Assembly (NCBI GenBank): GCA_029267355.1
Contig: JAJUJA010000008.1
Span: forward strand, 1 to 34,793
Direction: 5' to 3'
Length of the DNA stretch: 34,793 nt
Source of the DNA: Elusimicrobiota bacterium
GTDB taxonomy: Bacteria; Elusimicrobiota; Elusimicrobia; Elusimicrobiales; UBA9959
Part shown: piece by piece, positions 24,237-34,793 of the stretch
Position numbering within the stretch: the stretch's first letter is position 1
Layout: each line of letters starts with the position of its first letter
The notes under the pieces: model-generated
Database searches by the model: none
What the model was told of the DNA's origin: nothing
The model's input: only the letters and a program-made list of their open reading frames with translations
Program-made: the position numbers and the translations under genes

Positions 24237-24265
24237 TTGTCATACTTGCCTGCATAATGTAAAAT
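24237..24265 (+). promoter_or_regulatory. Promoter for the fecR-domain / surface-protein unit
   Basis: TTGTCA (24237-24242) and TAAAAT (24260-24265) are separated by exactly 17 bases, each one mismatch from consensus. The expected leader is about 55-60 bases before the ATG at 24330. It is the only good promoter seen before the 10.4-kb run that extends to the window end. Confidence 0.65.
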
Positions 24266-24329
24266 GTCCGTATGTTTCTGCTCACGGGCGGCTTTGCGGA
24301 ATTTTGATTTTATATGCGATGGAGGACTT

Positions 24330-25838
24330 ATGCGGTCCATTTTTGTTTTTGCTTTGTTTTTGTTAATGGAAACTTTTTCATTTTGCGCCTATCTCAGCGA
24401 GGTGAAAGGAGAGGTATTTATCAAGCCGCAGGATTCGGCTTTCTGGAACAAAATAGAATCACAGGCCGGCAATTTGAAGATAAAAAACAGAGATGAGATA
24501 AGGACCTCCAGAGCATCCTCGGCTGAAATCGTTATGGACGACGGCAGCAGGATAAAGATCGCTCCTTTTTCTTATTTCAGACTGGAAGAGGAAAACCAGA
24601 CGGCTGCGAAAATAAATTTAATGGCCGGCAAAATAAGAAACTGGGTGAAGAAATTTTCAAAAAAATTTGACGTTAAGACGCCAACGGCCGTTTGCGCCGT
24701 AAGAGGAACAGATTTTATGGTCGCAGTTGACATGGAAGGCGGCACAAGGGTTGAGGTTTATGACGGCAGCGTGGCTGCCGGCGATTCAAGGGGCAGAGAG
24801 ATACTGGTGAGAAAAGGGGAAATGATAGAAGTGGGCAAAGACGGCCTTGGCGAAAAAATGGAAAATAAAAATCCGCCCCAAGAAATGGCCTCTTCCATAG
24901 GCGACAAGAAAGAAGCCGCGAGGAAGGAGCTTTATTCCGAGATTTCAAAGGATGCGGTAATAAAACAGGCGCAGGCCGAAATGCAGTCTGCCGAGTACCA
25001 GAACAGAAAAACCGCCATAGACGCCTACGGCCTGAGAGTGAGAATGGAAGAGTACATAGTAAGGCCGGCAGACAATCAATTCAAATATGTAGTATTAAAT
25101 ACGAGGAAAGATTCCTTCAATTTCGGGAAAATACTTTTCACATTTAATTCGCCTTTGCCTGAGGACTTGTCCATGGCCACTAAAAATATGCTCTATTATG
25201 AGGGCAGCTCCGCGCCGCAATGGTATTTGACCGAAATGAACAGCGTTATTTCAAATACCTACGACAAAGTTACGGAAGACGCTTCCGGCGGAAAGATGAT
25301 AGCCGATAATGCCTCCGCTCCTTCTTATTGGACTCATTTTTTCTCTAATTACGGCGTATATTTTGCAGGGCCGGCAGAGGGCGCTGAAAACGGCGGACTC
25401 GGGCGGCTTTTGTGGAAATATTCCGACTCCAACAATAACAACATCGCGGACAGCGGTGAATTTGTTTTCCTCGGCAACAGGACAGTAACCTCCGTGACTT
25501 CAATTTCTTCCTATCAGAAGCAATACAATTTCAATGACGGTTCTTCAATGATAGCCACAAGGATAAATCCTTCTGGGGACGATGTGTTTGATAACATTGT
25601 AAGGAACGAATATTCGGATGGAACATGGATAAATACCAGAGATTATCTTCTCTTTGATGACGGCAAAATCGCTTCCGCAGGCGATTTTGCTTCTTCAATA
25701 GGCGGAGTTTCACGTTCCGATATAGCCGACAGGCTGAATTTTGAGAGAGTTTATGAAAGTTCGCTGTTTCAGGGAAGGAAAATTGACCTGGAATTCTCGG
25801 CGAAACTTTTAAAAGACGCGGGTCTTATAAGGTTTTAA
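24330..25838 (+). CDS. Exported FecR-domain protein
   Basis: The protein has a signal peptide (MRSIFVFALFLLMETFSFCA) and a FecR domain at about residues 22-170. This is seen in VKGEVFIK, DEIRTSRASSAEIVMDDGS, VKTPTAVCAVRGTDFMV and GGTRVEVYDGSV. There is no N-terminal anti-sigma domain or transmembrane helix and no sigma-factor gene nearby, so it is not a classical FecR regulator. A charged helical stretch (about 175-235) and a C-terminal region of unknown fold follow; that region contains an EF-hand-like loop DSNNNNIADSGE. The ORF track starts at 24264, but the ATG at 24330 has GGAGG upstream and begins the signal peptide. Ten bases separate it from the barrel gene. Its role may be structural or adhesive; this is inference. 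Confidence 0.8.
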   Translation: MRSIFVFALFLLMETFSFCAYLSEVKGEVFIKPQDSAFWNKIESQAGNLKIKNRDEIRTSRASSAEIVMDDGSRIKIAPFSYFRLEEENQTAAKINLMAGKIRNWVKKFSKKFDVKTPTAVCAVRGTDFMVAVDMEGGTRVEVYDGSVAAGDSRGREILVRKGEMIEVGKDGLGEKMENKNPPQEMASSIGDKKEAARKELYSEISKDAVIKQAQAEMQSAEYQNRKTAIDAYGLRVRMEEYIVRPADNQFKYVVLNTRKDSFNFGKILFTFNSPLPEDLSMATKNMLYYEGSSAPQWYLTEMNSVISNTYDKVTEDASGGKMIADNASAPSYWTHFFSNYGVYFAGPAEGAENGGLGRLLWKYSDSNNNNIADSGEFVFLGNRTVTSVTSISSYQKQYNFNDGSSMIATRINPSGDDVFDNIVRNEYSDGTWINTRDYLLFDDGKIASAGDFASSIGGVSRSDIADRLNFERVYESSLFQGRKIDLEFSAKLLKDAGLIRF

Positions 25839-25848
25839 CGGAGGGTAA

Positions 25849-27045
25849 ATGAGATTTTTACTTTTCTTTGCTTTATTTCCGGTTTTGGCTCAGATGTCAT
25901 TTGGCGCTGTTAAATATAATCCTGTAGGCGATTTGTCCGTTTACGGAGGGAAATATTATCTTGACGGGGATTCGGCTTCGGCTGATCTGAAGATTGACGC
26001 TTTTTTCTCGCCATCTTTTATTTTTGACGAAAAAAACGAATTCTATCCCGTATATATGGGTTACTATAACGGCACTCAGGATGTTCAGGAACTTGCAGGC
26101 GGCGGGGTGCTTACAAGGCAGAGACAGGAGCACACACTTTCTCTTAAGTATGTGAGAGTGAACGATTTTGATAAGATAAAACCGAGAATTTCCTATTCAA
26201 AAGCCCTTGTAAAGGAGACAAAGGACGAAAAATGGGGCGACGGCCTGTTTGACTACGATACTATATCTCTAGGAGTTGAATTTGAGCAGGAAAGACCTCA
26301 TGGAACCTTCTCTCAATCCTACGATTATTTTTCCGTTAGATATCCGAATTATTCCTCGCTTATTTCCTCTGCGGATACCGTCATAGATACCACCACATAC
26401 AGCGAGCTTTCAAAGAATGCCGGGGACAATACCTTGAACAATTCATCTCACAGGGCCGCTTTTTCGTATATATGGTTTCCGAACACTGACGTTATGAAAA
26501 TATCCGCAAGTTTCACCTACAGAACTTATTCGGATCAGAGCGTGGTATCAAAGACTGGAGGATTTAAATCGGAAAAAAGAAAGGATATGCTGGCAGGATT
26601 TGGTTTCAGGTGGGAAAAACCTTCAAAAAAGCTTCCTCTTTCCTTTGATTTTGCCTTTGACAGGCAGCTTTCAAATCAAAATTCCTATGACGCTTCAAGA
26701 ACAAAGTATATAGACGATTTTTACGGCTATACGAGGTTATCAGCCGGACCAAGGGCCGATTTCTTTTTCAAAAACGGCTCATCATTCGGCTACGGACTTA
26801 ACTGGGAAAAAATTTACTATTCAGGCAGGCTTGCCCAGGACGCGGCTGGAAATTACAGGAATGACACCATACATCAGGAGTTTTGGCTCAACAGCCTTTA
26901 CTTCCGCTATCCTTTGGGCAAAAAGATATTTGTCAGAGTTAATTATTCTTATCAGGCCTCAAGCTCAAATATGAGATATGAAGCCGGCTACAGGTACAAT
27001 TACTCGGCCAGTTCATGGCTTGCCGGCTTGCAGTGGGAGTTTTAA
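25849..27045 (+). CDS. Predicted outer-membrane beta-barrel protein, family not recognised
   Basis: I do not recognise this family. A signal peptide (MRFLLFFALFPVLAQMSFG) is followed by about 380 residues rich in Tyr, Phe, Ser and Asp with many alternating polar/hydrophobic strands, for example ISASFTYRTYS, FGFRWEK and FVRVNYSYQAS. It ends in LAGLQWEF; the terminal Phe is the usual barrel signal for BAM. There are no evident enzymatic motifs. The ATG at 25849 has GGAGGG upstream. It sits between the FecR-domain gene and the giant exported protein with gaps of 10 and 21 bases, so the three are probably cotranscribed. It may be a dedicated channel or anchor for its neighbours, but that is inference. 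Confidence 0.75.
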   Translation: MRFLLFFALFPVLAQMSFGAVKYNPVGDLSVYGGKYYLDGDSASADLKIDAFFSPSFIFDEKNEFYPVYMGYYNGTQDVQELAGGGVLTRQRQEHTLSLKYVRVNDFDKIKPRISYSKALVKETKDEKWGDGLFDYDTISLGVEFEQERPHGTFSQSYDYFSVRYPNYSSLISSADTVIDTTTYSELSKNAGDNTLNNSSHRAAFSYIWFPNTDVMKISASFTYRTYSDQSVVSKTGGFKSEKRKDMLAGFGFRWEKPSKKLPLSFDFAFDRQLSNQNSYDASRTKYIDDFYGYTRLSAGPRADFFFKNGSSFGYGLNWEKIYYSGRLAQDAAGNYRNDTIHQEFWLNSLYFRYPLGKKIFVRVNYSYQASSSNMRYEAGYRYNYSASSWLAGLQWEF

Positions 27046-27066: not shown

Positions 27067-30000
27067 ATGAAAAACAAAATATTATCCTTTTTTTGCCTGC
27101 TGTTTCTGGGTTTGTCTTTTGCACACGCCGCCGACCCGTATTTTAACTATACCGGAAATCCCGGGTTTGTGAATGACTCCATTGAACCAAATTACCCTCA
27201 GCAAAATACAGGAGTAAGATTTGAAGTCAAGTATTTTTCTGACGGGAATATCCCGCCTGCTTCAGCGTTCCCGAAACTCAAAATTGTCAAGGACGGGGTG
27301 GAAACATCCTATTTAATGCTGCCTCTCATACCCCTGGATACCTATTATATTGACGGGAAAGATTATTTTGTCAATACCAGTTTCGGCTCAAGCGGTTTTT
27401 ACGAGTATTACTTTGAAGTCAGGTCGTCCACCTCGGCCACTATAGTTCAATCGCCCCGATTCGGTTTTCTGGTTCTGGATGCATATCATAACTACGGAAA
27501 TTTTCTGTCCACTTCCGGCGCTGTTGCGGGAACTGATTCATGGGATCAGGCGATTGACATAAAGACAGACAGCGGGGGGAATGTATATGTCCTTGGCTAC
27601 TACAATCCCTACTCGTACATAATTAAATACTCAACAGGCGGTGCTTTCCTCGGCAGGACCATTCTTGAACCGAATGTTCAGTACAAAAAGCTATTCATAA
27701 ATTCCTCAAACCATATATTCGCAGCAGGAGACTATTACGATTATCAGTTCTATTCAAACAAAGTTTCGGTTTCCAAATACGATTCCTCAATGGTTTTTAT
27801 GTCCTCAAGTTCATATCAATTCTCTGCGTCCACAAATTCTTGGTTTTCTGATATGACCGGCGACGGCTCCGCCCTTTACATATGTTCCCAGAATGATGAC
27901 TCGCGCTTCAACATAAGCAAGATAGGTTTTAATCTTTCTCCAGCGGCTTCTTTTGACGATTCCGGTTCTTCAAACAGCTCCTGCAATTCAATAGCCGCAG
28001 CAAATTCAAGCGTTTTCGCCTTGACGCAGATAAACGGAGTTCCTGTTTTAGTTAAGCTTCCTGATACACTGTCTCCTGTTTCCCTTTCATCAACAAGCGT
28101 AAGTAATTCCAACAATTATCAGCATATGTCAGCCGATTCTGCCGGCAACACTTATCTGCTCGGCCAAAGGCAAATTTGCGATACATATTGCGAGAATTTC
28201 ATAACTCTTGAGAAGAGGGATTTTTCTCTCTCTTTAAGCTCTCAGGCTTATCAGGTCTATCAGGGCTGGAATCAGCCGACAGATGTCTTTGTTGACACAA
28301 TGTCAAATGTCGGAGTCTCAGTCCAAATAGAAAACAACGGAAACAGCGATTATGGAGTTTATCTTTTTGATTCCTCCACGCTTGATATTAAGAACTTTTT
28401 TTACTACGACGGCGGAGCATGGGACAGTCCGAGAGCTTTAAGTATGTCAGGCAATAACGTATATGTAACAGGTATTTCCGATATAGAACAGCCCGGCAAT
28501 ATCTATCAGTCGGATATAAGAACGGTCAGGCTTGTTAATGACCTTTCTCAAAACAGAGCGCCTGAGCTTTTATGGCTTAATTCAGGCGATTACTGGTATA
28601 AAGGCGTGAGTCCGCAAAACGGTCTGACCGGCGGCAGCTTTGATTTCAAAATTTTGTATAGAGATCTCGACAGCGATCCTACGGCTTATATAAGGGTCGA
28701 AATATATAAAGACGGCACTCCTATATCAGGAAGCCCGTTCGACCTTTATTATGAATCAGGCATCAGCACTTTTACGGGTATAGTTTATCACGCTGCTATA
28801 ACCCTGCCGGGAGCCGGACAGTACTCTTATAAATTTTCCGCGGCGGATTTCCATGGCGGCTCAATTGGTCTTGCGGCTAAGGGCTATCCGGCTGAAAATA
28901 TGAGCTACGGCCCTGTGATTGCCGAGGGATTCAGCGGAAACTTGTCTCTTTCTACAGGCGCTGCTTATTCTATGGGCTGGAATATGGAGCCGGAGGATAT
29001 AACCGTTTTGAGCCGTTCGGGAGAAGGCGACTATGTCTACGCTCTTGCCGAGATAGACAATTCACCTTACATAATCAAGTTCAGCACGGGCCTTAATTCT
29101 TTGTCCGTCTCAAGCCAAATAGTTTCGAACGATCCTTATCACGCCGATCTTATTTTTAATGACAAGGCGGACAATATTTATCTGGCTGGGCTTACAAGCA
29201 TAGCCAATAAGTACTACCTTGACGTAAGAAGGTATAACTTGAAACTGGATAATACCAAGTCTGGAACTTTCAATCTCGGCATGGATTCAGTAAGTCTTGA
29301 AGACTCCGCCTCTGACGGCTCATCATCATATATTCTTTTCAGAGATGTATACAACGGCAAGCAGAGGGCCAGAATAAGCGCTTTTGACAACACATTAACG
29401 CATGTGTATTTGCTGGGAGCAGAGGATTTGACTTTCAGGCCGCATAATGCTGACGGCTCATCATATTTTGACGCTTATCCATCCGGCATGGTTTTAGACT
29501 CGTCAGGAAATATTTACATAGCCGGGTATTATTATCATGATGAAATCGGCTTAAATCAGGGGAATAATATTTTTGTGGCTAAATTTGACGCTTCAAACGG
29601 ATATTCAGTATCATCCTTTACATTTACATCCCCCGGCGCTTTCAGCGATGATAAGGCGCAGAGCATAGACCTTGACCAGTCAGGGAACATATTTGTTTCC
29701 GGCATTGTTAACAATGGCCAGAGAAATATGTGGCTGGCTCTTAAGCTGGACAATTCGCTCAATCTTGTGAATTCAAAGCTTTTTGATGCAGGCGAGCTTT
29801 CGGAAAATTATGATGTTTCATTCTCAACTCACAGCAATTCCCTGTTTATTTCAGGGTATGTTGAAGAAAAAGGAAATTTTTATGAAAAAAGGTACAAGGG
29901 TCTGGTGCTTAATCTGGACAGCAATCTCGTTTTCAAGTCTTCGTTTACATACGGCAGCAACAATGAAGATACAAGATTGGGATTTGCTGATTTGAATTCC

Positions 30001-33000
30001 CAGGGCCAGGTTTATGTTTTGGGTCTTAAGAGAATAACAGATAATAGCGGTACAAACCAGAAAATTATAGTCCTTAAACCGTCGTTAAATGAAAACAAGG
30101 CTGTTTTCAATTTGTTCGCCTTTAAAAAATCCGACAATTCTCCGATGAGAGATATGAATATCTCTCTTATACCTTACAATCCCATGGGCTACCCTGATGT
30201 TGGACTTATTGATTTTGGTGTAACCTCTTCATCAGGCAATGCCTCTTTCTCTGTTGTTAAAGGTCTAAATTATCTGATAGCCGTAAGCACGCCGGGCTAT
30301 TCGCCAAGGGTAAAGGAACAGGTTTATGACCCTTACGGCAATTTCAATAAAACATTCACTTCCAATATTTCATCCAATTATTACTTCAGTCCTTTGACTA
30401 CGCAGGCCAATACGCTAAGACTGAATATAAAGAACGTCTATAAAGGCGCTTTGCTTATGGGCGAGGTTTATTTCCTGCAAAACGGCGAAAGGGCAGCTTA
30501 CGGCATTTTATCGGCTACAGGCCCGATTTCCACTATGGAAATACATAATGTGCCGAATATAGCTGCCGGCTCCTATGGAGTAAATGTGAATATACCGGGT
30601 TTTATCTCAAGAGATATATATCCCTTTACAGCAATACCATCCACTTCTCCTATTTTAGTTGATATGTCTATGGCCGGACCGCCGTCCTCAAACTATACGC
30701 AAAATATTTCCACGGCTTCGGCTTTTTTCAGCGGCCTGGTTTTGGATTTAAACGGAAGCCCCATACAGGGCGCTTCTGTGAGAGCTTACTGCAATTGCGG
30801 CCCTTCGGGATGCGAGTTTGAAAAAAGGGTTTACAGCGATGCCAACGGCCGTTTTGCGGCTTACGGATATGACAGCGAAAGTTCCTGCTCTCCTTTGTAC
30901 TATGAAATTGGGAAAATAGGCTACAATAAATATCCTTCAAGAGATATGGGGCCGGCTCCTTCATTCGTCCCGCCATATCTCAATATCACTTATATGCTGA
31001 CTCCTGCGACATATTCTGTGAGCGGATATGTAAGGTATATGGGCAGCCCTATAGCCTATGCCAAGCTGAGAATAGGCCCTTCATGGGATAGTTTCTCGGG
31101 CTCTGATTCCTATGCCGGAAATGGAAAAGGAATAGATAACTCAGATTTTATGGTTATTACCGACGGGGACGGCTATTTCAGTTTTACAGGAATAAGCGAC
31201 GGGAACTTGAATATATCTGTAGAGAATCCTTTGTACAGGAGCATTTCGGGCGGCATTGACGGCGATATAGACACAAAAGAGGACAATATAAGAATAACTG
31301 TCAGCTCTTCTCCTGCCGCCGCCCCCGGTTATCCATGTATAGCAGGCAAGGTCTGGGTTTTAGACAGCACCGGCACATGCAAGGGTGTTATGCCTTATGT
31401 TTTTGATATGGGTATAGGCGTATCTACAAATGCCATTGTAGCCGGAAGTCTGACCTTCGCTTCAACTTATACAGTTACAGGCTCAAATCCTCTTGTAATT
31501 TCAAAGTCATCTGCTGTCGTAGTGGCTCTGATTGAGGAATGCGACGGGGAATGCCAAACGAGAAAATCATTCTTCTCAACCGTGTGGGGCACCTACGGCT
31601 CAAACATTATTCCATATTCGGTAAGCGTTTCAAGTTATGACCCTGTAACAGGACAGCCTGTAAGATACTGGCTTACCGTGCTTTCAAATTCCTGGGCCAA
31701 TCTTAATTCCTTTGACGGGGATATTTCCTTTTCAACATCTAATGTCATCACAAGGCATATAAGCCTTGTAAAATCAGGCAAAATCACGGGCTATATAAAA
31801 ACATCAGACGGCTCCGTATATATACCGCCTCAAAACAGCAGGCCGAGAATAAAAATAAAGGGCGAAACTGTTTCCTATGACAAAGACGACGAAATAAGGG
31901 ATGACGGCACATTTGAGTTTGAAAATGTGCCGGGCGGGAAGTATGATGCCATAGTACAATTTCCCGATGACAGTTCTTATGTGCCTCTGGAACTGGAAGA
32001 TGTTGTTGTAAATGAAGGCAAAACTACAAATATAACTTTCTCGCTTAAGGAAGGTTTATATGTGCAGCCCAAGATATACGGCCTGCCTGAAATATCTACA
32101 GTTTCATGGCAATATAAGGTAATGGCAGTTCCAAGCGGATCGCAAATGAGCAGTTCTTTTATAACCGAAATGTTTTTTGGCGAGCCGATGTATGTCTTTG
32201 ATTATGATGCTGTTGCTTCAATCTGGAGCACAAAAGTTTTGCCTGAAGGCCGCTTTGACTTTTATCTGCTGCTTGTCTCAAGGTATTGTACTCCCGGAGA
32301 CACAGAATGCGGTTCAGCGAACTACAATCAGTTTGCCAATTTTATCGGCAGAAGCAGGGGCGTTAACATAAAATATGATTCCAACTCTCCTCTGCTTGGA
32401 ACTTTTTCTCAGCCGATTAATGTCAGTATTGTAGGTTCAATAGGCCAGAACTATATGGGAGGCATTGGAAAGGGGGAAAGAATTTTTACGGATTTTGACT
32501 ATCAGAGACTTTTTGCCGATTTCCAGAACCAAATTATGCCTCTTATACCTTCGGTTATGATATATGACACCGCCGGCGATTTAAGGGGCTTTTCTCACAT
32601 AATATGCGATGAAAACGGTCTTGCAGCGCTTATGAACGGCGTGCTTGAAAGGAATCAATCAGCTATAAGAGATTCAATAGCGGCAGGAATGTACAAATAC
32701 TATATCTGGGGCCTGCCGCCGGGCAAATACACGGCTGTTTTCTCAAATCCAAATTATCCTCCAATTGCCAGAAATGTGACACTGCCGGACAATTCCTCCT
32801 ATGATTTAAACTTTGACCAGGCTAATGTTTCAGTCGGAAACATAGTCGGAGTTGTGAAAAGCTCAGATTCCCTGTCTTCCCCGCTTTCAAACGCCATGAT
32901 ATACCTGAAAGGAAAAATCACCAGTAAATATGCCGTCACTGACAGCTCAGGGCGATTCACATTTTCGGATATGCCTGCCGGCTCTTACAAGATAGAGATT

Positions 33001-34653
33001 TCAATGGACGGCTTTGCCAAATCCGGTAAAAAGTTTTCTCTCGGCAAAGATGATACTGCCGACCTCGGCACATTTTATCTCAAACCTACCACTTCAACGA
33101 TAGCGGGCAAAATATACTATTCAAGGTTTCCAACCCCTCAGGTTAAAGAAGGCATAAAAATTTCCGCCTATGATGAAACCTTGAATGTTACAGACCCGCA
33201 GAGTTATCTGCCTGTTCTGGAAGATATAACAGATGAAAACGGACTTTTTGAATTGAAAGGCGTCGTGCCGGGACACAATTACAAACTTGTTGTGGCTGAA
33301 ACCGGCAAACAGGTTTTTTCAACTGTTACCTACGTAAGCGAGGGCATCAATTATGTTCAGGATATAACTTTGGCTGACTTGCCCCCTGAAATAACCGTGA
33401 AGATAAAGAAAGATGCCGATTCGCCGAATAAGGTTAATGTGTCCATACAGAGCCCCAAGGAGCTTGTAAGCATACCTTCATGCCAGTATAATGAGGGCAG
33501 CGTTTTTGACTCCTCATCGGCTGTTTCTCTGGCCTTGGTCCCTGCCGCCAATAAAACTTATGTCGGCCAATTTACCATATCTTCGGCTTCAAGGTATTAC
33601 ACCATAAAAGTTTCAGCCGGCGACTCAACTCAAGTTGAGAAAACCATAGTTTATGACAGTCTGTCAAACTCCAAGACCGAGCAGTACATAAGCGCGGCAT
33701 CTTTGCTTGGCGGAAATGTTTATATGGACAGCGAAAAGGAAGAATATTCCGGCCTTGAACTGGATGCCGGAGCTTTGACTCAGACCAGCACGGCTGCGGT
33801 GGATATGAGCGATTTGGCAGGCGGTTTCTTCAGCGCCCTGCCCAATGTAAGGACTGTCAAGACGAATAAAGGGGATTTGACCATAGATTCTGTTATACAG
33901 AATATAATGGCCTCTGAGGTTTACGATATAGACCTTTCAAACGCTCAGGCCAACAAGTCCTTTACCATTTCGCTTAAATACGATAAGGAGAAAGCGGCTG
34001 CCTCAGGATCATTGAAAATCTATCAATATGATCAGTACTCAGGCGAATGGAAAGAGGTGCCTGGCACCTATGATATAGACCCGACCATGGGAGTTGTCTC
34101 AGTTTCTGTGGACAGTCTTGAAAGCGCTTATGAAGGTTCCGCTTCCGGCTCATCGCCGATGGCAAGAAAAGCGCATAAAATGAGCGCTATTTCGCCCAAG
34201 GGTTATTATGTGCCTTCGGCGGCATCATCCTCTCAAAGCGGAAAGTTTGCCGTGTTCTCCGCCAAGCCGCCGTCCGGAGTAACATATTCAGGTTCGGCTT
34301 TTGAAATCTATAATATGCCTAATCCTTTTAATCTCAAGGATAAAACTCTCTCTATTTCAGACGGGTGGAGCGGAGTTACCGGCACAAATTATGTAACAAG
34401 AGGCACTATAATAAAATACTTCTTGCCTGCCTCAAAGAGCGGCAATGTTAAACTTGTAATTTACAATAATGCCGGCGAGAAGGTCAGAACTCTTGATGAA
34501 GGTTCCCGTTCCGGCGGGCAGGTTTATTACGCTGAATGGGACGGCAAGAATGATGAAAATGAGGACTGCGCCAGCGGGGTGTATTTCCTTATGACATATC
34601 TTAATGGCGACAAACTTGGAAATAAGCCTCATAAAATGGCGATAATAAAATAG
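27067..34653 (+). CDS. Giant exported multidomain protein with Por/FlgD-like C-terminal domain
   Basis: The 2528-residue protein starts with a signal peptide (MKNKILSFFCLLFLGLSFAHA). Two propeller-like regions (about 159-500 and 637-1010) carry SBBP-type repeats such as GNVYVLGYY, GNTYLLGQ, GNIYIAGYY and GNIFVSGI, separated by an Ig-like segment (about 500-600). About six carboxypeptidase-regulatory-like beta domains follow, near 1012, 1219, 1315, 1569, 1922 and 2009; examples are VTDSSGRFTFSDMPAGSYKI and ITDENGLFELKGVVPG. The C-terminal domain (about 2410-2528) has NMPNPFN, LVIYNNAGEKVRTL, AEWDGKN and SGVYFLM, resembling type IX sorting or FlgD-Ig domains. Cysteines cluster in pairs, suggesting disulfides. 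No protease or hydrolase motif was seen. It is probably surface-displayed, with an adhesive or structural role inferred. GAGAGG precedes the ATG. Confidence 0.85.
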   Translation: MKNKILSFFCLLFLGLSFAHAADPYFNYTGNPGFVNDSIEPNYPQQNTGVRFEVKYFSDGNIPPASAFPKLKIVKDGVETSYLMLPLIPLDTYYIDGKDYFVNTSFGSSGFYEYYFEVRSSTSATIVQSPRFGFLVLDAYHNYGNFLSTSGAVAGTDSWDQAIDIKTDSGGNVYVLGYYNPYSYIIKYSTGGAFLGRTILEPNVQYKKLFINSSNHIFAAGDYYDYQFYSNKVSVSKYDSSMVFMSSSSYQFSASTNSWFSDMTGDGSALYICSQNDDSRFNISKIGFNLSPAASFDDSGSSNSSCNSIAAANSSVFALTQINGVPVLVKLPDTLSPVSLSSTSVSNSNNYQHMSADSAGNTYLLGQRQICDTYCENFITLEKRDFSLSLSSQAYQVYQGWNQPTDVFVDTMSNVGVSVQIENNGNSDYGVYLFDSSTLDIKNFFYYDGGAWDSPRALSMSGNNVYVTGISDIEQPGNIYQSDIRTVRLVNDLSQNRAPELLWLNSGDYWYKGVSPQNGLTGGSFDFKILYRDLDSDPTAYIRVEIYKDGTPISGSPFDLYYESGISTFTGIVYHAAITLPGAGQYSYKFSAADFHGGSIGLAAKGYPAENMSYGPVIAEGFSGNLSLSTGAAYSMGWNMEPEDITVLSRSGEGDYVYALAEIDNSPYIIKFSTGLNSLSVSSQIVSNDPYHADLIFNDKADNIYLAGLTSIANKYYLDVRRYNLKLDNTKSGTFNLGMDSVSLEDSASDGSSSYILFRDVYNGKQRARISAFDNTLTHVYLLGAEDLTFRPHNADGSSYFDAYPSGMVLDSSGNIYIAGYYYHDEIGLNQGNNIFVAKFDASNGYSVSSFTFTSPGAFSDDKAQSIDLDQSGNIFVSGIVNNGQRNMWLALKLDNSLNLVNSKLFDAGELSENYDVSFSTHSNSLFISGYVEEKGNFYEKRYKGLVLNLDSNLVFKSSFTYGSNNEDTRLGFADLNSQGQVYVLGLKRITDNSGTNQKIIVLKPSLNENKAVFNLFAFKKSDNSPMRDMNISLIPYNPMGYPDVGLIDFGVTSSSGNASFSVVKGLNYLIAVSTPGYSPRVKEQVYDPYGNFNKTFTSNISSNYYFSPLTTQANTLRLNIKNVYKGALLMGEVYFLQNGERAAYGILSATGPISTMEIHNVPNIAAGSYGVNVNIPGFISRDIYPFTAIPSTSPILVDMSMAGPPSSNYTQNISTASAFFSGLVLDLNGSPIQGASVRAYCNCGPSGCEFEKRVYSDANGRFAAYGYDSESSCSPLYYEIGKIGYNKYPSRDMGPAPSFVPPYLNITYMLTPATYSVSGYVRYMGSPIAYAKLRIGPSWDSFSGSDSYAGNGKGIDNSDFMVITDGDGYFSFTGISDGNLNISVENPLYRSISGGIDGDIDTKEDNIRITVSSSPAAAPGYPCIAGKVWVLDSTGTCKGVMPYVFDMGIGVSTNAIVAGSLTFASTYTVTGSNPLVISKSSAVVVALIEECDGECQTRKSFFSTVWGTYGSNIIPYSVSVSSYDPVTGQPVRYWLTVLSNSWANLNSFDGDISFSTSNVITRHISLVKSGKITGYIKTSDGSVYIPPQNSRPRIKIKGETVSYDKDDEIRDDGTFEFENVPGGKYDAIVQFPDDSSYVPLELEDVVVNEGKTTNITFSLKEGLYVQPKIYGLPEISTVSWQYKVMAVPSGSQMSSSFITEMFFGEPMYVFDYDAVASIWSTKVLPEGRFDFYLLLVSRYCTPGDTECGSANYNQFANFIGRSRGVNIKYDSNSPLLGTFSQPINVSIVGSIGQNYMGGIGKGERIFTDFDYQRLFADFQNQIMPLIPSVMIYDTAGDLRGFSHIICDENGLAALMNGVLERNQSAIRDSIAAGMYKYYIWGLPPGKYTAVFSNPNYPPIARNVTLPDNSSYDLNFDQANVSVGNIVGVVKSSDSLSSPLSNAMIYLKGKITSKYAVTDSSGRFTFSDMPAGSYKIEISMDGFAKSGKKFSLGKDDTADLGTFYLKPTTSTIAGKIYYSRFPTPQVKEGIKISAYDETLNVTDPQSYLPVLEDITDENGLFELKGVVPGHNYKLVVAETGKQVFSTVTYVSEGINYVQDITLADLPPEITVKIKKDADSPNKVNVSIQSPKELVSIPSCQYNEGSVFDSSSAVSLALVPAANKTYVGQFTISSASRYYTIKVSAGDSTQVEKTIVYDSLSNSKTEQYISAASLLGGNVYMDSEKEEYSGLELDAGALTQTSTAAVDMSDLAGGFFSALPNVRTVKTNKGDLTIDSVIQNIMASEVYDIDLSNAQANKSFTISLKYDKEKAAASGSLKIYQYDQYSGEWKEVPGTYDIDPTMGVVSVSVDSLESAYEGSASGSSPMARKAHKMSAISPKGYYVPSAASSSQSGKFAVFSAKPPSGVTYSGSAFEIYNMPNPFNLKDKTLSISDGWSGVTGTNYVTRGTIIKYFLPASKSGNVKLVIYNNAGEKVRTLDEGSRSGGQVYYAEWDGKNDENEDCASGVYFLMTYLNGDKLGNKPHKMAIIK

Positions 34654-34677
34654 GTGTTCTTTATTTCGGGAGATTTT

Positions 34678-34793
34678 ATGAAAAAAACGATAATATTTCT
34701 GATTTTCCTGGCCTCAAATGTTTTTGCCGGCAGCGGCACGACAGCTGCCAATTTCCTCAAGTTTGCCGTATCAGCGCGCGAGGCCGGGCTGGC
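34678..34793 (+). CDS. PorV/PorQ-like outer-membrane protein, N-terminus only (partial)
   Basis: The frame runs from the ATG at 34678 to the window edge and is absent from the ORF track. A signal peptide (MKKTIIFLIFLASNVFA) is followed by GSGTTAANFLKFAVSAREAG. This closely resembles the conserved start of PorV/PorQ (UPF0164-type) barrels, usually G-T-[ST]-[GA]-A-x-FLK-[IL]-x-x-[GS]-AR-x-x-x-[ML]-G. PorV carries type IX cargo to the cell surface by binding its C-terminal domain. GGGAG lies before the ATG, 24 bases after the giant gene, so the two are probably cotranslated. Only 38 residues are visible, so the assignment rests on that short motif. Confidence 0.65.
   Translation, partial: MKKTIIFLIFLASNVFAGSGTTAANFLKFAVSAREAGL

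Follow-up and report, generated by a model that had tools for sequence, protein, structure and literature searches.

The window analyzed in this study, 34,793 nucleotides long, is the entire contig C15 of a 1.93 Mb assembly that is 93.8% complete; the genome belongs to Elusimicrobiota and is therefore neither in Bacteroidota nor in the FCB group. Its last part carries, on the forward strand, a gene (27067–34653) for a protein of 2528 aa, which has propeller-like repeats and about seven carboxypeptidase-regulatory-like domains and in which a Sec-type signal peptide was recognized by eye. The N-terminus, MKNKILSFFCLLFLGLSFAHA, is hydrophobic and signal-peptide-like, and the C-terminal region contains, in order, NMPNPFN, VIYNNAGEKVRTL, EWDGKN, CASGVYF, and HKMAIIK, the last being the exact C-terminus. 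The domain resembling FlgD-Ig or a type A domain of the type IX secretion system (T9SS), which the original prediction had placed at the end of the giant protein, was indeed seen there as a sorting-type C-terminal domain (CTD) at 34276–34650 on the forward strand.

Downstream on the same strand lies a gene for a PorV/PorQ-family barrel, here called the carrier, of which only the 5' end (34678–34793, 38 codons) is present, the rest being cut off by the contig end; its product begins MKKTIIFLIFLASNVFAGSGTTAANFLKFAVSAREAGL. The coordinates agree with the prediction that such a gene follows after 24 bases, counted between the cargo stop codon, which ends at 34653, and the carrier ATG at 34678.

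Directly upstream of the giant gene is a gene for a 398-aa beta-barrel protein that is secreted and probably located in the outer membrane (25849–27045, forward strand), and a gene for a 524-aa FecR-domain protein (24264–25838, forward strand) opens the group. Together, these genes form a conserved four-gene cassette in the order FecR-domain protein, barrel-like protein of ~400 aa, giant protein, and carrier. The placement of the FecR-domain and barrel-like genes (24264–27045) ahead of the giant gene is repeated in many genomes of the family (L232–L241). With the last 517 residues of the giant protein as the query, orthologues of ~2400–4400 aa turned up in most of the genomes in this family, and no fewer than 14 of these have the giant gene and the carrier gene as direct neighbors, on which ground a chance gene order was set aside for this pair. 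A stray Bacteroidota contig, that is, contamination, was set aside in view of the family-wide orthologues and of the phylum-wide synteny of sprA with lptFG described below.

The C-terminal domain and the carrier

The comparison of the window CTD with PF13860 and TIGR04183 that the original prediction had proposed gave a divided answer. PF13860 (FlgD_ig) was passed at 36.4 bits (cut-off 27) and is the best Pfam match of the domain, and TIGR04183 matched 11 of the 18 members of the window-CTD family at E 0.01 or better, although weakly; the window domain alone, however, did not reach the TIGR04183 cut-off. The PorU CTD model matched all 18 family members and the PorZ CTD model 16 of them, all weakly, and the FlgD models scored best. 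Since a profile of the window-CTD orthologues gave no significant T9SS match in the PDB, the T9SS assignment of this domain rests on the weak NCBIfam matches, its position, its conservation, and the wider CTD set; judged by its own sequence, the window CTD is ambiguous between FlgD-Ig and a type A CTD. FlgD proper was set aside because the domain lies at the extreme C-terminus of a secreted giant protein, and the likeness to the FlgD hook-cap Ig domain, for which the Pfam match speaks, ends in the wider set before the C-terminal tail.

Among the other proteins of the same genome, seven pass TIGR04183, and three cargos reach 40–65 bits against the part of the PorZ model that covers the CTD. In the wider CTD set, K-h-h-h-h-K/R is the usual pattern of the last six residues, and position −6 is occupied by K or R in 34 of the 36 CTDs. 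When the final 45 residues of this set were made into a profile, its best PDB match was PorZ of P. gingivalis (E 6e-6), aligned to the final residue, and it also matched 8glk_D, a type A CTD trapped inside the translocon, whereas FlgD matched only the WDGxNxxG-GxY half. Near the C-terminus of type A CTDs is a nearly invariant lysine, which contacts PorV (PMC10994853), and the C-terminal CTD motif is required for export (PMC11285876). By inference from alignment, the −6 lysine of the Elusimicrobiota CTDs may be the conserved type A lysine.

The carrier orthologues next to the giant gene are about 307–330 aa long and have the same start motif as the window gene; a complete one from the same genus (L217:1057–1998, 313 aa) contains GSGTTAANFLKFAVSAREAGVAGAYSAVGDD. 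The full-length orthologues of the truncated gene (309–313 aa) scored 146–168 bits against NF033709 (PorV_fam, cut-off 90), so that the predicted PorV/PorQ-like nature of the downstream protein was confirmed at the family level by the curated HMM, as well as by a PDB profile and the predicted fold of a related carrier, but it is closer to PorQ than to PorV. The nearest named subfamily is PorQ (NF033711, 123–137 bits, under the equivalog cut-off of 220), and the PorV equivalog NF033710 gave 52–68 bits, under its cut-off of 250. The profile built from the carrier alignment matched 6h3i_F, PorV of the T9SS translocon, at E 1e-24, while a PDB search with one carrier sequence and no alignment profile returned chance matches only. 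The predicted model of the related carrier L126, which is of modest confidence (pLDDT 63), had the PorV chains 8gl6_F and 6h3i_F as its top fold matches, followed by FadL-family barrels, and the L126 carrier set is homologous to the window-type set (hhalign 100%).

The SprA-type pore, the motor, and the sortase

No pore component had been visible in the window, and the search of the genome that the original prediction suggested revealed a SprA homologue on contigs C5 and C34. TIGR04189 (SprA) matched C5 at E 1e-23, and with a phylum-specific profile the gene was resolved as C5:15-4589 plus a C-terminal part on C34 (C34:14054-14659). Besides this two-contig split, the gene has a single in-frame TAA (L026:1620 region, C5) where the copies of the same genus are open, and whether this reflects an assembly error or a real interruption is undecided.

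SprA-like genes encoding ~1750–1930 aa were present in 162 of 199 Elusimicrobiota genomes, and in 132 of the 143 good ones. Their scores are all below the TIGR04189 cut-off (best 84 vs 200 bits), and the Elusimicrobiota SprA is therefore to be regarded as a divergent homologue. A profile of 20 SprA-like proteins had SprA as its only PDB match (6h3i_A/6h3j_A, E 7e-37), in three separate stretches. In most of 20 neighborhoods, the sprA-like gene adjoins divergent lptF/lptG-type genes, and in most it is followed by a comF-type gene (names assigned by eye), and a CTD gene and carrier lie close to sprA in several lineages (L125, L126, L127, L174, L179, L192, L196, L200, and L202). Near lptFG–sprA, L113:3944-5641 encodes a CTD protein whose M6 peptidase domain is Immune inhibitor A-like. 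The Elusimicrobiota type of SprA also occurs in L176 and L195, records titled Sumerlaeota and Caldiserica, in genomes with 29 and 23 PorV_fam matches, respectively; these records are probably misnamed, or the distribution is wider.

The motor parts PorL (GldL) and PorM (GldM), also named in the original prediction, were not found, with no match above the cut-off in 100 genomes for GldL and 41 for GldM, and none in the genome of the window. The PorU-type peptidase (Peptidase_C25, PF01364) was absent from this genome and from 59 of 60 genomes. A complete T9SS is thus not demonstrated. At the same time, distant homologues of the missing parts are not excluded, because the GldL and GldM searches had no T9SS-bearing Bacteroidota as a positive control and because GldK, GldN, SprE/PorW, and PorE were outside the search.

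It is conceivable that these genomes encode a complete ordinary T9SS, in which the motor, ring, and sortase genes have diverged too far for the models, and cleavage and attachment of the cargo follow the Bacteroidota pattern. SprA itself was found only below the cut-off, so other parts could be missed as well, and the four components just named were never searched; weak GldM-like and GldL-like matches also exist, but in the 41 and 100 genomes searched, respectively, they remain unsupported even at loose thresholds, and the C25 family appeared in a single genome of the 60. The SprA homologue, the PorV-family barrel, the C-terminal Ig-like CTD, and the near-terminal lysine are all shared with the type A route of Flavobacterium and Porphyromonas, where a PorV shuttle works with SprA. 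However, Bacteroidota use a single PorV for every type A cargo (PMC12618676), whereas Elusimicrobiota has many dedicated carriers, each next to its own cargo, and GldL, GldM, and C25 peptidase were not found, within the limits given above. A complete, undetected T9SS is thus unlikely in our judgment.

Pairing of cargo and carrier and their loss with SprA

At least nine CTD proteins were identified in the genome of the window by TIGR04183 or FlgD_ig, and a carrier gene follows on the same strand in eight of nine CTD genes, the window pair being counted through its orthologues; six more PorV-like matches, mostly weak, are without an upstream CTD. In a sample of 40 carriers, chosen by carrier score alone from six other genomes and one locus of a seventh, a CTD gene lies immediately upstream of 29, all of these CTDs are C-terminal, and several of the sampled gene pairs overlap by 4 bases. 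This arrangement is similar to that of type B CTD cargo and its cognate PorP/SprF, in which the shuttle gene is directly 3' of the cargo gene and the pairing is specific (PMC12618676), although Elusimicrobiota uses FlgD-Ig/type A-like CTDs and PorQ/PorV-family barrels, namely another CTD type and another shuttle family.

The pairwise CTD distance within genomes correlated with the carrier distance (r 0.73; 0 of 20,000 within-genome permutations), whereas across genomes the best partners agreed in 62 of 216 cases vs ~46 expected, which is only a weak signal. The within-genome co-variation fits cognate pairing, but the pairs could also have duplicated as units without any physical binding.

SprA and carriers occurred together in 161 genomes, SprA only in 1, carriers only in 13, and neither in 24 (Fisher p 1e-20), a p value that is overstated because related genomes are not independent. 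For two of the carriers-only genomes (G179 and G070), sprA was resolved as contig-edge pieces, while in about ten genomes with carriers, some of them nearly complete (G046 and G131), SprA was undetected. PorV-family genes without a SprA detected even by the phylum profile were observed in G046, G131, G166, G156, and G111, and fragmentation may explain some of these cases; G046 is 99% complete and has two carriers. Decay of sprA, which is full of stops or left as a remnant, was seen within the Endomicrobium-like genus g33 in G183 (C25:27816-30540), G052 (C1:953509-954112), and G119 (C11/C28), symbiont genomes that have lost almost all of their carriers and retain 0–1.

The joint loss and the co-variation bear on another explanation, according to which a generic Ig/FlgD-like domain and a FadL-type transporter barrel are adjacent for metabolic reasons and the SprA homologue does other work, e.g., lipid transport. 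The Pfam match of the window domain to FlgD_ig, the FadL-family barrels that come next among the carrier fold matches, and, for lipid transport, the lptF–lptG synteny could be read in this way. It is nevertheless PorV of the T9SS translocon that tops both the fold and the profile matches of the carrier, and the CTDs are C-terminal with K/R at −6 and a tail that fits PorZ where FlgD stops short; moreover, CTD and carrier co-vary, and the loss of SprA goes with that of the carriers. An assembly of generic parts is therefore very improbable. The original prediction had allowed for its own refutation if only generic Ig or FlgD folds, no PorV-type barrel, and no pore or motor genes were found; this refutation did not hold, since the barrel is of the PorV/PorQ family, SprA has a homologue in the genome, and in the wider set the tails align with the PorZ CTD as far as its last residue.

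A type IX-like pathway proposed for Elusimicrobiota

The gene pair and its conservation, the homology of all three parts, their co-occurrence, and the co-variation are established, and we consider it likely that Elusimicrobiota has a divergent type IX-like pathway of outer-membrane secretion and display, spread across the phylum, with the cargo–carrier pair as one of its units. The idea of such a display system outside Bacteroidetes, as originally put forward, stands with respect to the PorV/PorQ barrel, the SprA homologue, and the Elusimicrobiota host; GldL/GldM and a PorU-type peptidase are what the searches did not find, and its function is inferred.

In the proposed pathway, the giant protein would be exported by Sec, and its Ig-like CTD would be recognized inside the SprA-type pore by loops of its own PorQ/PorV-type barrel. 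Barrel and cargo would exit the pore sideways together, and the barrel would remain as the membrane anchor of the cargo, leaving the CTD uncleaved, in the way that PorQ holds PorZ in Porphyromonas; a single pore gene may serve about ten or more cargo–carrier pairs. Transport, the absence of cleavage, permanent anchoring, and the energy source are all inferences without experiment.

In P. gingivalis, PorQ anchors PorZ (PMC5562754), and the PorZ CTD in Porphyromonas is not cleaved (PMC5562754, PMC11285876). The Elusimicrobiota pairs are comparable with this attachment complex in that the barrel is PorQ-like (as much as 137 bits on NF033711) and its partner has a PorZ-like CTD, but they belong to another phylum, number many per genome, place each carrier beside its own cargo, and come without a PorU-type peptidase as far as our search could detect. 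Release instead of display, in which export is of the SprA type and the carrier parts from the cargo after extracting it, modifies the main reading and does not amount to a separate system. Although in F. johnsoniae the CTD is believed to bind PorV less strongly once outside the pore (PMC10994853), we give this variant very little credence, as lasting attachment is favored, by inference only, by one carrier per cargo and the lack of a detected sortase, cf. PorZ–PorQ and type B cargo with PorP/SprF.

Several observations count against the display pathway itself. GldL/GldM were not found, although the motor is needed for release from the translocon in F. johnsoniae (PMC10994853); the window CTD scores higher on FlgD than on T9SS models; the sprA gene of this genome is interrupted and split; the SprA scores are under the cut-off; and there are carrier genomes without a detected SprA.

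The T9SS has been called absent outside the FCB group (PMC11285876) and exclusive to Bacteroidota (PMC12618676), and a survey reported it in Bacteroidetes only (PMC4793230). Our full-text literature search, which did not cover subscription papers and preprints, found no paper on T9SS in Elusimicrobiota. We tentatively suggest, with confidence falling somewhat short of even, that Elusimicrobiota has a working non-FCB type IX-like translocon that does without a sortase and the GldLM rotary motor, in which each cargo keeps its CTD uncleaved and is served by a PorQ/PorV-type barrel of its own as extraction carrier and permanent anchor. The energy would come from cognate-carrier binding or another envelope machine, and this could be an older, simpler form that was later elaborated into the T9SS of Bacteroidota.

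A phylum that almost throughout encodes the pore, the carriers, and the cargo tags would widen the range of the T9SS and make its origin accessible to study. It would also provide a naturally occurring SprA pore that works apart from its known motor, which bears directly on the energy need of the translocon. Further, a likely surface role is indicated for PorV-family barrels and giant unannotated proteins, hundreds in all, of bacteria from groundwater, from the gut, and from association with termites.
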